Below, piece after piece: positions 4,082-11,994 of a DNA stretch of 64,000 nt. A model generated the notes under the pieces. That model saw only the letters and a list, made by a program, of their open reading frames with translations. It made no database searches and was not told where the DNA came from. This DNA comes from Spirochaetia bacterium (GTDB lineage Bacteria > Spirochaetota > Leptospiria > Leptospirales > Leptonemataceae). Position 1 is the stretch's first letter. Each line of letters starts with the position of its first letter. Made by a program: the position numbers and the translations under genes. The stretch lies in the NCBI GenBank assembly GCA_021413825.1, contig JAIOPQ010000010.1:26983-90982 (forward strand), given 5' to 3'.

Positions 4082-5624
4082 ATGCGCAAACATGACCCTG
4101 GCATTCCAATTTCTTTGTCCATGCAGCCGCTATTGACGCAGGAGGACATGCGTGTATCTCCTGAGAAGGAAAAAGCTCGCATCTTTTTTCTAAGTCTAGT
4201 GGCAATTCTCATTGCAGACGTTATGTGCTTTATCGCGCGTTTCCTGGTTGGATTGATTGATGTGCTCGTGAATCTGTTTTACTTTGGTCGATTTTCAGCT
4301 TTGCATGTGACACCCGCGAGCAGTGGGCTGGGAATCTGGGCGATTGGCATCCCTGCGCTGGGCGGACTGATTGTGGGATTCATGGCTTACTTCGGCTCGA
4401 AGGCAATCCGTGGCCATGGAATCCCGGAAGCGATGGAACAGATACTGACAAATGAAAGTAAGATCAAGCCATCCATTACGATTCTCAAACCACTTTCAGC
4501 AGCGATCTCGATCGGCAGCGGTGGCCCGTTTGGTGCAGAAGGTCCAATTATCGCAACGGGTGGTGCACTGGGATCTTCCATTGGTCAGCTGCTGCGAATT
4601 TCTGCCGACGAAAGAAAGATAGAGACTGCCGATTCATTGGGTCTGGTGGCCAGCGCTCGGTGGGCTCTTTGATGGAGCGATTGGGCTGTTTGCACCCCAA
4701 ACCCTTGGAGTTGGTTACGAGAATATCAGCATTGTGCTTTCCGGTTCGGCATCCGTTCGCCTGCTCTGGATTCTATGTCTCCTTAAATTTCTTTCGTGGG
4801 CTGTAGCGCTTGGAAGCGGAACGTCAGGCGGAACACTCGCACCTTTGTTGACTATAGGCGGTGCGACCGGTGCTCTTGCCGGGCATTTGATGGTGCTGCT
4901 CTTTCCCGGTCTTTCGGTTTCCATCTCCGTCTGCGCACTGGTTGGCATGGCTGCAATGTTTGCTGGCGCTTCGCGAGCACTCTTAACATCGATCCTGTTT
5001 GCTCTGGAGACAACGGGCCAATTAAATGGTCTACTGCCTCTGATAGCCGGGAGCACGGCGTCCTATTTCGTATCCTTTTTTCTAATGGATACTACCATCA
5101 TGACAGAGAAGATCGCGCGTCGTGGTGTTGTTACTCCTGATTCGTATACGGCCCAGACCCACCAGGACGTAAACGTGACAATTGCAATGCAGAAAAATCC
5201 CTGGCTTGTGAGTTCTGAAAATTCAATTTCCGACGTTCGCAAATGGCTGAGGCGACGGGTTCACAAGGAAAATCATTTGATCGTGGTCAGGCCTGACGGA
5301 CAGTTTCTGGGTCTTGTGGGTGTGGTTGAATTGTTCGCCGCAGATTCCAAAGTGGCGCTCACGTCCCTTTTACGTCACAAGGGTCTGGAGTCGGGGACAG
5401 GCATGTCAATTCAGCAGGCTACGGAGCTCATGGCCGCTGAGGATATAGACGTGCTGCCAGTGATAGAAGACAGGAAAGTTGCAGGTGCTATCACAGCCGG
5501 TGACCTGATTCGTCTGCACGGTCGAAGGACCGCCAACCTGCGGAATCGTAGCAAACGCTACTCGCTCAGGAAACGAAGCCTTCGGCTTATGGTCCATGGG
5601 AAAAACCTGATCAGAAGGAGTTAG
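4082..5624 (+). pseudogene. ClC-family chloride channel/antiporter with C-terminal CBS domains, disrupted by internal deletion plus frameshift
   Basis: ORF 4082-4672 carries GHGIPEAME and GSGGPFGAEGP...ISADERK. A second frame, open from just after TAG at 4620, reads RLPIHWVWWPALGGLFDGAIGLFAPQTLGVGYENI and continues into ORF 4734-5624 (GTSGGTLAPLLTIGG, CBS pair). The segment normally joining ADERK to LPIHWxWWPA is absent. Confidence 0.85.
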
Positions 5625-6322: not shown

Positions 6323-6395
6323 GAGGCGTTAGCTCAGTCGGTAGAGCATTTCCCTTTTAAGGAAGTGGTCCCGGGTTCAAGTCCCGGACGCCTCA
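6323..6395 (+). tRNA. tRNA-Lys(TTT)
   Basis: GAGGCGT/ACGCCTC acceptor, GCTC/GAGC D-stem, TTTCC-CTTTTAA-GGAAG anticodon arm, CCGGG-TTCAAGT-CCCGG T-arm, discriminator A. Confidence 0.96.
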
Positions 6396-6440
6396 AATTC
6401 TGATTGCACGCATGCGCTTACGCAGGAATGCAGTCGAAGC

Positions 6441-6512
6441 GGCCCGTTCATCTAGCGGTTAGGATACCGGATTTTCATTCCGGGCACAGGGGTTCGATTC
6501 CCCTACGGGCTA
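6441..6512 (+). tRNA. tRNA-Glu(TTC)
   Basis: GGCCCGT/ACGGGCT acceptor (one G-T), CCGGA-TTTTCAT-TCCGG anticodon arm, AGGGG-TTCGATT-CCCCT T-arm. Confidence 0.95.
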
Positions 6513-6636
6513 ATTTCTTCTTTCCCTCTAAATTCATTCCTCACCGCGCAGAGTTTGCTGAAAATTCCCGGTCGGACCTATACAAAGCAAGAATCGTTTG
6601 ACCTGCCGCCCGTTTTGAGTAAACTGGTTTTTCCTT

Positions 6637-6710
6637 GGAGTTGTAGCTCAGTTGGTTAGAGCGCCTGTCTGTCACACAGGAGGCCGCCGGTTCAAGTCCG
6701 GTCAGCTCCG
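6637..6710 (+). tRNA. tRNA-Asp(GTC)
   Basis: GGAGTTG/CAGCTCC acceptor, CCTGT-CTGTCAC-ACAGG anticodon arm, GGTTCAAGTCC T-loop. Confidence 0.96.
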
Positions 6711-6764
6711 CATTTCCGCTTTCATGAACCCGTCGTTCGCGGGCGATTTATGAGAAAACGCATC

Positions 6765-9700
6765 TCAATTGTCGAACCAATTGTCTCTTTTTGCAATTTC
6801 GCCAACCGGCGTTATTTTCTCAGCTACGTTTTGGCGGCACGTTTCCTCAGCGACTGCCACTAACTCGGCAGGATAATTCTCACAATTTTCAATTATTTGT
6901 TCTGCGACGCTCAGAGGCAACCGTTGAGCGCGAATGGCTCCGGCCAAATAGTAAGCATAAGATTCGTCGCTTTCGACTCCGGCTGAGTGCGCGCGTGAAA
7001 CTATCGGCAGCCAATCTTGCCAAGTGGTCGCGTCAGCGTGTGCAGCGCCAAGAGCAACTCGCTGACAAAAACGCAATACGGCAGGGTCATCCCCCTCATA
7101 AGAGCGCAAGCGCTCACGCACTAGGTCGTCTGCGGCAGGATTACGAATCCGATTTCCAAATGCGGCTATTGTTCTCTCGGATAGGCTCGTAGGGAGCTCA
7201 CTGAATGGAATTCCGGTGTCTTTCTTTTCTTGCATAATACCTATTGATTCACTCAACCTGAGCCAATCCGATTGATTTAGGGCCAAGAGTTTTTCATCTA
7301 TGAGTTCTGCGTTCTTTTCAAGGACAGTCCATCCACCCCACTGGAGTAGGATTAGTAGAGTAAACTGAATATTAGCCGCACCTGCCGAAAGTATTTGTTC
7401 TTCCCACCAGTTGGCTGCGCCAGCCCGCAATCTGGCATACCTGGCCCTCCGGCATAGGGAAACTCTTGAATCATGCAAGTTCGGTGCATCGTCGCAGGTC
7501 TCGCTCTTAGAGGTAATGCCCGCGCTAAGGTTTGCAAGGACAAAGAAAAGCCACCTTTCACCAAAGAGGTGCCGGGCTTGTTCCACAAGTTCATTCCAAG
7601 GTTCCAATTCGGTTGCCCATCCTGACGCCGGACGTTCTGCAAGCTTGAGACTGGTTTCGATCACCCTACGGCAATCTTCAGTCCTGCTAGTTGCTTCAGG
7701 ACCCAAACTATCGGCGGAGTATGAGGCAAACGAGTCCATTAGGTGATAACGGCTCCATAGATTCTTCAACGGGATGGGCTGACGGTCTTGGAAGACAATC
7801 GCGTACCGCTGTGGCCAGAGGGCATTTAGGAAATTTGCGATACTAGATCCACGACGTATTCCAGCTAAGGGATATTGAGCAAGGGAAAAGTCTAAGACCT
7901 TAGTGAATCGACTGGCGTCCGATTCTACATAATCACTCTTTCCACCATGAAGGAAATGAGTCAGGCGTTTCGTCTCATCCTTGCCATCCCCCATAATTAC
8001 TGTGATTTGTTCCTCCTCGAGTTGTGCCAATGCACCGAGGTACAGACCGAATCCTATCCAAGCGGTCCGTTGCGGGCCTGATGCAGCTTTCACCGCCGCT
8101 AACCAGCGACTCAAAATGTCTTCTAGTGATGCATTGGCCTTGATCAGTTCAATGAGAAACATGGCGTAATCATTGTGTGGATTCGAATCGAGCAGATGAA
8201 AGCATCGCTCTAGAAGTTCTTCTTGTCCGTTTTGTCTAGGTAAGATAAGAGCGTCTTGATGGCGAAATGGGCGCCCGCTACGCGTGTTGATTAGGCCAAT
8301 TCCGTTCAAGACCATAGTGACCACTTTCTTCATTGATCTAGGTTGCTGTGCGAAAACCCAATCAGCCAATAGTGTCGCGGCTAATGTTTTGGGATGTCGC
8401 GTATTCCTGTACCCCTCTGCTTTGGATAGTTCCTCGAGTCTATCAACAAGGGAAGAAAGTTCGCCTTTGTTGAAGCAGCCAGCATAGAAGCGAGTAACAT
8501 TATACCAAAAGAAATCTCGAGACAAGGCATCGAATCGATCCGGTAGTGTCCCGCTGACGGGGTTACCAGCGGGCGAATAAGGAGCTGTTTCATAAAGGTG
8601 GCGGGCTGCGAAATACTCTCGAAGGGGTTGGACTTCGAATTCATAGGTCCCTTCCACTCTTGAAACCAGAGCGACAACCCGTTCGACCATGCCATCGAAG
8701 AGCGGGGCTACGAGCGATGAATCGTGTCCTTCCTCGTTCAGATAATCTGAAACGAGCTGTCGTAAGCGCTCACTGCTGACACTCCCGCGATTCTGCGCGG
8801 TTTGGGCTTCAGAATGCAGAATCCACGCGAGATATCGATGAATGTCTAAGAGCAAATCTCGATGATCCCGCACTACGTTTGATTTTTCAGCCTCCCGGCT
8901 GAAGAAGAGTTCAACGTAATTATCATAAAGAGCTGTCCTTTTATCGGGTAGAGATCCGCCCCTGGTTTGGATTAGGCTCAACAAAATCGCTAATTGCATG
9001 GGATTCCTGGCCAATTCCTTCAAGTGAGGTTGATCCAGTTTCTCGCGTAGAATTCTTCGGACCTCAGCCGCCTCCTTTCCCGGCAGGCGCCTGGCAATTA
9101 GCCATTTTTCTGCGTATTGTTCGATTAAAGGTCGGTTAATGGACGCAAGGTGGTAGAAGCTGAAGGTCCCATCCGGCATAGCCGGCGAATTAACAAACGC
9201 CGCTGGTCGCGTCGTAACAACTGTTTGTAAGGAAACCGCGACTTCCTCGATTCTGCCGATCCCCTTCGTAATGTGGTCGATGACATCGCGGCGCCGGCCA
9301 ATGTCAGCTACTTCATCTAGACCATCAAAAACAATTAGTAGTGCGCTGATTCTTGCGACTGCGTGAAAGTCGGATACATCAAAAGCGGCTCCTCCGGAAT
9401 AGTGGCTGACTTGTGCCGCCAAAAAGGACTCCAGTGATTTCAACCAGTCCTCAGGCAATTGCGCACTGGCTTCCGCCGCAAACGGATTCTGGCGATTAAG
9501 CCAAAGGGCGAAATCTCGACAATCGACTTTGAACGGAAGCCGTACGGGCGACAGACGATGTCCTTGAGGAATACGTTCATCGCTTATCCCCTCGTTTAGT
9601 ATTCGACTCCGATGTATTTGACAAACGTATTGAACGATAGTTGACTTACCTTGGCCTGGGGCTCCTTCGAGGACAGTGCGCTTTAGGTGTTCCTGAGTGG

Positions 9701-10472
9701 CCGAATGTAGCAACAGAGTTGCGGCACCGGTTCCCTCATCGACTCCGCTGTTTCGTCCAATCTGATTAGCTATTGCGCTGAATGTAAAGAGGTGCCTACG
9801 ATGCTGCATTTCTTTTGACGCACCATCACGAAAATTCAAGGGAACGTCTATGAAAAGGTCGAGTAATTTATTCTGTAATTCTACTTGTTTAAAGCGAACT
9901 TCAGTGTCTCGTTGGAACTGATCGCGCAAAAAGGCTTTGATAGCGCTTGTGCGGCGATTCGCGTGTTCACCTAAACCACTTTCAACAATCGCGCGAAGAA
10001 TATCTTGGCTACTCAGAATTTCAGGATAGGCCCATTTGATATTCCAGCTGTCGTCGAGTCGACGGTTCAAATCGTCTCGCCACCAACATTGCGCTGGAAT
10101 CGGTAGATACTCACTAAATACCTCTTGAACAAGGTCTATTGACCCGACGCTTGGATGTGCCGTGCCGGGAACGTTCGTTAATAGGTAATATTCTTTAGCT
10201 CCTTTCGGAATCAGATCTCGGACTTTAGGTGCTTCTTTTTCTACGATGTCTTTAAGCCATTCGCGGCTTATCGGATCGGATGCCTTTCGAACAAATTTGA
10301 CTTGATAGACTACAAACCCATCTTCCCCCGAAAAGCGGGATACTGCGTCTCGACCACCGTCGGGTTGTGCAATAGGAAAGCACTGAGTTCGGGGGAATGC
10401 TTTGGTAAGCAGGGCTTGGCAAACTTCTTGAAAACGTTCAGGCCCTAATTGTTCCAATGAATAATCCATCAC
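6765..10472 (-). CDS. NACHT-domain STAND NTPase with N-terminal PD-(D/E)XK (Mrr-like) nuclease-type domain; candidate anti-phage NLR
   Basis: N-terminal FQEVCQALL...PDGGRD...FVVYQVKF (nuclease-like, about 10361-10293); Walker A EGAPGQGKST (about 9665-9639); Walker B LLIVFDGLDEV (about 9341-9312); NACHT-type ...RNPMQLAILLSLIQ.RGGSLPDKRTALYDNYVELFF; long C-terminal helical region. Adjacent to a tRNA cluster. Confidence 0.85.
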   Translation of the reverse strand: MMDYSLEQLGPERFQEVCQALLTKAFPRTQCFPIAQPDGGRDAVSRFSGEDGFVVYQVKFVRKASDPISREWLKDIVEKEAPKVRDLIPKGAKEYYLLTNVPGTAHPSVGSIDLVQEVFSEYLPIPAQCWWRDDLNRRLDDSWNIKWAYPEILSSQDILRAIVESGLGEHANRRTSAIKAFLRDQFQRDTEVRFKQVELQNKLLDLFIDVPLNFRDGASKEMQHRRHLFTFSAIANQIGRNSGVDEGTGAATLLLHSATQEHLKRTVLEGAPGQGKSTIVQYVCQIHRSRILNEGISDERIPQGHRLSPVRLPFKVDCRDFALWLNRQNPFAAEASAQLPEDWLKSLESFLAAQVSHYSGGAAFDVSDFHAVARISALLIVFDGLDEVADIGRRRDVIDHITKGIGRIEEVAVSLQTVVTTRPAAFVNSPAMPDGTFSFYHLASINRPLIEQYAEKWLIARRLPGKEAAEVRRILREKLDQPHLKELARNPMQLAILLSLIQTRGGSLPDKRTALYDNYVELFFSREAEKSNVVRDHRDLLLDIHRYLAWILHSEAQTAQNRGSVSSERLRQLVSDYLNEEGHDSSLVAPLFDGMVERVVALVSRVEGTYEFEVQPLREYFAARHLYETAPYSPAGNPVSGTLPDRFDALSRDFFWYNVTRFYAGCFNKGELSSLVDRLEELSKAEGYRNTRHPKTLAATLLADWVFAQQPRSMKKVVTMVLNGIGLINTRSGRPFRHQDALILPRQNGQEELLERCFHLLDSNPHNDYAMFLIELIKANASLEDILSRWLAAVKAASGPQRTAWIGFGLYLGALAQLEEEQITVIMGDGKDETKRLTHFLHGGKSDYVESDASRFTKVLDFSLAQYPLAGIRRGSSIANFLNALWPQRYAIVFQDRQPIPLKNLWSRYHLMDSFASYSADSLGPEATSRTEDCRRVIETSLKLAERPASGWATELEPWNELVEQARHLFGERWLFFVLANLSAGITSKSETCDDAPNLHDSRVSLCRRARYARLRAGAANWWEEQILSAGAANIQFTLLILLQWGGWTVLEKNAELIDEKLLALNQSDWLRLSESIGIMQEKKDTGIPFSELPTSLSERTIAAFGNRIRNPAADDLVRERLRSYEGDDPAVLRFCQRVALGAAHADATTWQDWLPIVSRAHSAGVESDESYAYYLAGAIRAQRLPLSVAEQIIENCENYPAELVAVAEETCRQNVAEKITPVGEIAKRDNWFDN

Positions 10473-10857
10473 GCTTCAATCCTTCAAAACTTGAGTGAAG
10501 CAACCGCAAGGTTCCGACCGCACAAGACTTTTTTGATTTCTGATGGGGAACCTGGTTCGAGCTCCGCGCTACCGCAATCGAGGGGTGCGAACTTGAGGCA
10601 GGGTCTTACTGCTAGCGAAAATCCACTCGAACCACCTACCTTCGCAGATGTTTCCCTCGGTCCGTCCATGGACCGACGGCGCGACCGCACCTCCTGTTGC
10701 GTGCGCAGTCTCTGCCCGCGATCATCCGGCTGTGCGAAAACAAGCCGTTCACAGTTTGAGTTCCCATTGTGTGACATCCTTATCGCGCAACTGCGCCGCT
10801 TCCGCCTGTCGAATGAAACACTGAGCTCAAGTTGCTGGCTCATTTCGCCCCTCAATC

Positions 10858-11994
10858 TCACATTGGATCAGTCGCAAATATTTCATTGATCGGACTGGAC
10901 ATGCTTCCGGTAATAATCACACCGCCGAGAGTTACGCCGCTCTGGGGATTCATTGTCGTCATGGTTCCATCTGAGTTTCGCGCATAAGTAAAAAGGACTC
11001 CGCCACCCGGATTGAGCGCGTAACCAAACTTTCCCTGGGCTTCAATGGAAATTCCAAACGCATTTGCACCGCCGCTGGCATTGGTGGCGAGTGAGGTTAA
11101 GACGCCAGTATTCGGATCAAAGCTGAGCGTTCGCAGGCCATTGCTCGACGCGTATACATAGTTTCCAAAAACTGTGAGGCTGTAAGATCCAGCAGCAAAA
11201 GGGAGTGAACTACGCAATGTCAGAGCTCCCGTAGATTGATTCACAGCATAGGATTCCACATTGGTACTTGTAACGACAAAGAGATAGTTGCCGCCCGAAT
11301 CAAAGCCGATGGTTTGAATGTTTCCGGTCACGCCCAGTGTATTTGGGCCATCCGCTAAGGCACCGGTATTCCCATCGATGATGCGCGAAGCGATTGTTGT
11401 GTTGTTTCCACAATAGAGAAATTTTCCTCCAGGATGGGCGGCTGCTCCCTGATTGTTATTGCAAATAGTGGACGGGTTAAAGCTTTGAATTGGTGTAAGC
11501 AGTCCAGAAGAAGATACACGCAGGGTTACTACAGCACCCGATCCCCCGGAACTGCTTACAAATACAAACCTCTGCAGTGCATCATAGGTAATGCCATTCA
11601 GAGTGGTGGCGGCAATCGTAAGATCGCCCAGATTTACGAGCGCTCCTGTACCTGGCGTTACCCTTAGTTGAGAAACCGTTGTTGAATTCTGCGTATAAAT
11701 GAATTTACCGTTGATCTCGGTTGTCATCCAACTCGGACTGGGTACGGCCAATTTGGGGGCAATCTGGGTCAGGGCGCCAGTCTCCAGGTTAACTGAATAC
11801 TGGAGTACAAAACCGCTTTGGTCCGTCGCATAGTAATAACGCGGTTTCAGAATCTTTAACCAGAATAGGGAAAGGAGGGAGGAGCAACCAGGATCGCCAA
11901 GGTCAGCGCAGGATGCGTTGACCTTGCAAGCAGTTGAGAGCAAAAAACCAAGACATAGGGGAAGAATTGAAAGGTGGGTCAGCCGAAGCTGCAT
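10858..11994 (-). CDS. lipoprotein, lactonase/YVTN-type beta-propeller
   Basis: Signal peptide with lipobox LLSTAC; repeated VxxxNxxTGALT...SxxGxxxYV blades. Confidence 0.8.
   Translation of the reverse strand: MQLRLTHLSILPLCLGFLLSTACKVNASCADLGDPGCSSLLSLFWLKILKPRYYYATDQSGFVLQYSVNLETGALTQIAPKLAVPSPSWMTTEINGKFIYTQNSTTVSQLRVTPGTGALVNLGDLTIAATTLNGITYDALQRFVFVSSSGGSGAVVTLRVSSSGLLTPIQSFNPSTICNNNQGAAAHPGGKFLYCGNNTTIASRIIDGNTGALADGPNTLGVTGNIQTIGFDSGGNYLFVVTSTNVESYAVNQSTGALTLRSSLPFAAGSYSLTVFGNYVYASSNGLRTLSFDPNTGVLTSLATNASGGANAFGISIEAQGKFGYALNPGGGVLFTYARNSDGTMTTMNPQSGVTLGGVIITGSMSSPINEIFATDPM

Follow-up and report, generated by a model that had tools for sequence, protein, structure and literature searches.

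The window analysed here, a stretch of 64,000 nucleotides from a contig of a Spirochaetia bacterium, carries on its minus strand one long gene for a putative NACHT NTPase (Table 1). The frame is uninterrupted across 6765–10472, with coding sequence from 10469 down to 6768 and the stop codon at 6765–6767. The ATG at 10469 is immediately preceded by a GTG codon, from which a product of 1235 aa would be obtained. As judged from the alignment, where the relatives begin at M-D-Y..., the ATG is the likelier start, giving a protein of 1234 aa. The intact gene of the preliminary description is thereby retained with a product one residue shorter, and the Walker A lysine numbered there as K276 becomes K275.

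Upstream of the gene, where the preliminary description saw no convincing genes, there is indeed an intergenic region of 385 bp, but a lipoprotein-like ORF lies beyond it (10858–11994, minus strand). This ORF is absent at the corresponding place in a genome of the same genus (G001); it may have come together with the NACHT gene or may be unrelated to it. A 125-aa ORF directly upstream (10484–10861) was considered as a partner gene and rejected, since it looks spurious. No partner for the NACHT gene was found, and no other defence gene was seen adjoining it within the window. Further to the left, a gene that by eye encodes a ClC-type chloride channel (4082–5624, plus strand) is split between two ORFs in different frames (4082–4672 and 4734–5624) and is probably broken; G001 has no such gene at the equivalent place.

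On its 3′ side the NACHT gene faces a cluster of tRNA genes, and the tail-to-tail placement described earlier was confirmed with ARAGORN. The left flank of G001 is collinear with the window through this cluster to about 6735, just beyond tRNA-Asp and 30 bp before the stop codon of the NACHT gene, where G001 continues with other DNA. The glpD block, which follows the gene here, is located on another contig there. The breakpoint against G001 identifies neither the route of arrival nor the exact empty site. It is consistent with the idea of insertion at a tRNA site, but no direct repeat accompanies it and no recombination gene occurs among the adjoining listed ORFs. Insertion by a phage-type integrase at the tRNA gene was rejected: a copy of the tRNA-Asp end, a flanking repeat and an adjoining recombination gene are all missing, and the GC content is like that of the surroundings.

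Table 1. Features of the NACHT gene, its product and the adjoining region (window coordinates)
Feature	Coordinates	Strand	Basis
Convergent cluster of tRNA-Lys, tRNA-Glu and tRNA-Asp genes	6323..6711	+	ARAGORN; cluster also in same-genus G001
Approximate synteny breakpoint versus G001	6735		G001 alignment ends near there
Complete gene, 1234 aa	6765..10469	-	No internal stop in frame; full-length relatives (32–54% identity) in other phyla
All-alpha superhelical C-terminal region, predicted sensor, residues 641–1234	6768..8549	-	AlphaFold2; fast divergence
Helical/winged-helix part of STAND module, residues 471–640	8550..9059	-	58% mean pairwise identity
NACHT NTPase domain, residues 256–470	9060..9704	-	Pfam PF05729; Foldseek Avs3/NLRP3/NOD2/NLRC4
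Walker B LLIVFDGLDEV	9309..9341	-	D382, D385, E386 in 69/69 rows
Walker A GAPGQGKST (K275)	9639..9665	-	G274, K275, T277 in 69/69 rows
Linker, residues 161–255	9705..9989	-	Mean pairwise identity 31%
Predicted effector: Mrr-like PD-(D/E)XK nuclease domain, residues 1–160	9990..10469	-	AlphaFold2 topology, Mrr_cat in relatives, PADLOC REase models
Active-site motif Q56-V-K58, QxK form of (D/E)XK	10296..10304	-	Q56 and K58 in 69/69 rows
Active-site motif D37-G-G-R-D41	10347..10361	-	D37 68/69, G39 69/69, D41 64/69 rows

Domain architecture and conservation

The N-terminal domain is predicted to be a nuclease on the strength of its relatives, motifs and structural model. In the AlphaFold2 model, residues 5–140 follow the order H-E-E-E-H-E-H-E, which is the order of the PD-(D/E)XK fold, and the pLDDT of this block is mostly 82–96; the fold expected for the N-terminus is thus seen as a confidently modelled topology. 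The nuclease-type motif DGGRD...YQVK, pointed out previously, is found as D37-G-G-R-D41 ... V-Y-Q56-V-K58 and is near-invariant in an alignment of 69 rows, where the five rows that depart from aspartate at position 41 have glutamate. Pfam Mrr_cat matches the N-terminal domain in 9 of 32 relatives, with a best value of 4.6e-5; the window protein itself gives no match to it. PADLOC models containing REase domains or unnamed parts match residues 1–180 weakly in two cases (4e-5 and 3e-4). Among 56 family members, 37 are matched by one of these models and 48 by the other. Within the N-terminal half, conservation is lowest in the linker that follows the nuclease.

The NACHT core recognised earlier by its motifs GAPGQGKST and LLIVFDGLDEV is borne out by both sequence and fold. 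Pfam NACHT (PF05729) covers residues 266–459 with 27.0 bits, just over the cut-off of 26.7, and the closest relative (L019) reaches 36.6 bits. Beside the Walker motifs, R421 is invariant (69/69 rows). Positions expected of a QxK-type PD-(D/E)XK nuclease and of a NACHT NTPase are thus invariant or nearly so in the 69 rows, and constraint acts on both active sites. Residues 471–640, made of helices and a beta hairpin (601–611) in the AlphaFold2 model, form the most conserved part of the protein.

Residues 1–650 were modelled with 56 sequences (mean pLDDT 86, pTM 0.78). A Foldseek search of the PDB with this model ranked a complex of Avs3 with phage terminase first (E 3.8e-8, probability 1.00), followed by NLRP3, NOD2 and NLRC4. 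Global TM-scores to Avs3 and the NLRs are low (TMq 0.26–0.40), which is attributed to a flexible model of several domains with unknown relative pose. Profile searches of PDB sequences returned no meaningful relative.

The C-terminal region is well predicted in a second model (residues 585–1234; pLDDT 87, pTM 0.85), as a superhelix made of helices from end to end. Foldseek found no PDB fold match for it at E<=0.001, the best being ARM/HEAT-type proteins, and no family was assigned to the C-terminal half from Pfam or the PDB sequence set. The preliminary description had put the unassignable part at about 800 aa; the failure of all libraries to assign it holds, but its length comes down to about 600 aa (641–1234), because residues 471–640 belong to the STAND module, as its conserved helical/winged-helix part. 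Mean identities over 300 pairs from the 25 closer sequences are 48% for the nuclease, 44% for NACHT, 58% for 471–640, 45% for 641–740 and 21% for 741–1234. The C-terminal part is less conserved in all 300 pairs and diverges at about twice the rate of the other parts. As far as alignment can tell, this pattern agrees with diversifying pressure on a sensor; a contribution from relaxed constraint or from misaligned repeats is possible.

Taken together, the modelled PD-(D/E)XK fold, Mrr_cat in relatives, the Foldseek matches to Avs3 and NLRs and the helical, fast-diverging C-terminus agree with the effector–NACHT–sensor layout proposed earlier for this protein.

Distribution, mobility and effector exchange

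A tblastn search against plasmids yielded 41 records. Scanning one genome per species with an alignment of these gave 79 loci; the same scan with the window sequence alone found no match. Acidobacteriota, Pseudomonadota, Cyanobacteriota and Actinomycetota contain full-length relatives with 32–54% identity. Others, whose reading frame is in some cases disrupted, come from Bacillota, Chloroflexota and Planctomycetota. At four loci (L022, L024, L028 and L037) a full-length match has its reading frame in pieces; these may be pseudogenes or assembly errors. In a quick tree, whose rows include metagenome bins, the window protein is placed beside an Acidobacteriota sequence, within a wider grouping that also takes in Cyanobacteriota and Pseudomonadota.

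Nearer to the source organism the gene is rare. It is absent from 99 related genomes, among them both same-genus genomes examined, so it is not part of a conserved core. A profile search of 393 genomes of the phylum produced three matches; the full protein is present in the source genome alone, the other two matches covering just part of NACHT and the region following it. The gene was very probably acquired horizontally. STAND NTPases also include transcription regulators, and a regulator of host physiology rather than a defence gene might be considered on that ground. Such a role is highly improbable for a protein with a nuclease effector whose motifs are intact, missing from same-genus genomes, scattered across phyla and plasmid-borne in its relatives. 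The patchy distribution, the kin in other phyla and the location of relatives on plasmids or within a P2-type prophage are, like the nuclease exchange described below, in keeping with a defence protein of the NLR type.

Plasmid relatives are annotated as hypothetical, NACHT domain-containing or ‘large ATP-binding protein’, and they adjoin Abi, AbiEi/AbiEii or type I restriction (HsdR) genes. At one locus (L068:11–7975), SIR2-like and HerA-like genes and a 1647-aa ORF stand directly upstream of the relative of the window gene; PADLOC reported SIR2 and HerA in the neighbour set containing these genes, and the locus is probably a defence island. Around chromosomal relatives, mechanically called ORFs scanned by PADLOC as a pooled set showed no clear enrichment at less than 3 kb compared with 3–8 kb, and both sets contain defence genes. 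The defence-gene neighbourhood of the relatives is therefore only suggestive as support.

Effector diversity was judged from the plasmid relatives alone. In three of them (L012, L013 and L018) an HNH domain replaces the REase domain; Pfam HNH_2 scores above its cut-off in L013 and L018 and below it in L012. The NACHT domain and following module of these proteins are 31–39% identical to the window protein. Exchange of nucleases on a similar NACHT switch supports the N-terminus as the effector. An Mrr-type catalytic domain replaceable by HNH could also be expected of an NTP-dependent type IV-like restriction enzyme, in which the Mrr-like domain would itself cut modified or foreign DNA, with the NTPase serving as its motor or regulator and without a distinct sensor for proteins, both nuclease types being known in modification-dependent restriction enzymes. 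The NTPase is, however, of the NACHT/STAND type with an NLR fold match, not a McrB-type motor, and the all-helical, fast-diverging C-terminus has no recognisable DNA-reading domain, which makes this explanation very unlikely.

Relationship to known systems

By published description, the closest parallels in layout are bNACHT25 and bNACHT32 of clade 6, in which an NCH1 domain follows a PD-(D/E)XK DNase and a NACHT module. DNA degradation, dependent on D48, sets in on infection or in response to phage coat protein, and bNACHT25 requires host DnaJ for sensing (PMC12169576). The window protein likewise has an N-terminal PD-(D/E)XK domain, a central NACHT domain and a helical C-terminus, and the catalytic aspartate comes early in both (D48 in bNACHT25, D37 here). 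Its C-terminal region matches no Pfam family, and it may or may not be of the clade 6 type with its NCH1 domain. With a STAND NTPase of the NACHT clade and an N-terminal effector retaining its active site, it can be counted among bNACHT proteins in the broad sense, as judged by its predicted domains.

Avs3 (AVAST, PDB 8dgc) has a nuclease, a STAND NTPase and a helical-repeat sensor, an arrangement also predicted for the window protein, and is the best structural match of the N-terminal half of the latter. The Avs3 chain is, however, about 2000 aa long compared with 1234 aa, and sequence identity is low (14%). The two PADLOC models listed for the window protein both match its N-terminal REase region, and neither is an Avs model. 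The likeness to AVAST/Avs is one of working, not of membership. Avs5 has the same three-part layout and no longer confers immunity when its C-terminal helices are deleted (PMC12931631). From P4 hotspots, Rousset et al. (2022; PMC9122126) described STAND proteins that combine an Mrr_cat effector with repeats at the C-terminus; the layout is again that of the window protein, compared by description with proteins of E. coli P4-like satellites.

A NACHT domain-containing E. coli protein, WP_096949132.1 (L143), is 23% identical over residues 4–689 and shares the REase and NACHT motifs, whereas its C-terminal region has no convincing similarity to that of the window protein. Its gene (L143:6001–9993) lies among P2-type prophage genes, and the search that found it gave matches in three of 5426 E. 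coli genomes. The animal NLRs NLRP3, NOD2 and NLRC4 share the NACHT and helical/winged-helix module by fold but carry a CARD/PYD effector and an LRR sensor. By its anatomy, the window protein may be expected to work like bNACHT/Avs-type proteins.

Proposed mode of action and significance

The protein, which has a likeness to animal and plant immune receptors, is likely to be a single-gene NLR-type (STAND) defence protein, in which recognition by the C-terminal region would be relayed through the NACHT switch and oligomerisation to DNA cleavage by the Mrr-like domain. In a resting cell the NACHT module would be closed and ADP-bound. The C-terminal superhelix would sense invasion, either through a phage or plasmid protein or through a host process disturbed by one. 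Binding would bring about nucleotide exchange and oligomerisation of the NACHT module, and the oligomer would gather the Mrr-like PD-(D/E)XK domains and so switch on cleavage, for which DNA is the presumed target. The invader, and probably the host too, would lose its DNA, and the protection conferred would consist in infection being stopped or aborted.

The same switch-and-nuclease machine might instead be directed mainly against plasmids and mobile elements, or against competitors of the element carrying it, rather than against phages. Some of the 41 plasmid records with relatives are conjugative or mobilizable, with the relative adjoining transfer genes; one distant relative was found in a prophage, and 50,697 phage records gave no match. 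Anti-phage cargo, however, also rides on plasmids and prophages. Among proteins with this layout Avs3 and bNACHT25 have been studied best, and what they sense is phage proteins or the effects of these; a principal role against plasmids is thus rather unlikely, and the NLR-type defence protein set out above, with phages among its probable targets, is preferred.

Proteins of this kind are already known as bNACHT/Avs-like STAND proteins, and the find is attractive rather than surprising. In the versions of PADLOC, Pfam and NCBIfam used, only the NACHT and REase parts of the window protein were recognised, not the protein as a defence system. It is possible, and put forward tentatively, that the protein represents an uncharacterised clade of NLR-type defence proteins, present in seven or more phyla, with the ARM/HEAT-like superhelix of about 600 aa as a new type of sensor and a ligand new to Avs/bNACHT proteins. 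Activators are known for a minority of bacterial NLR-like proteins. In this family of more than 60 aligned relatives, switch and nuclease are conserved, the putative sensor region diverges about twice as fast, and REase and HNH nucleases are swapped on a similar NACHT core, which makes the question of what is sensed directly testable.
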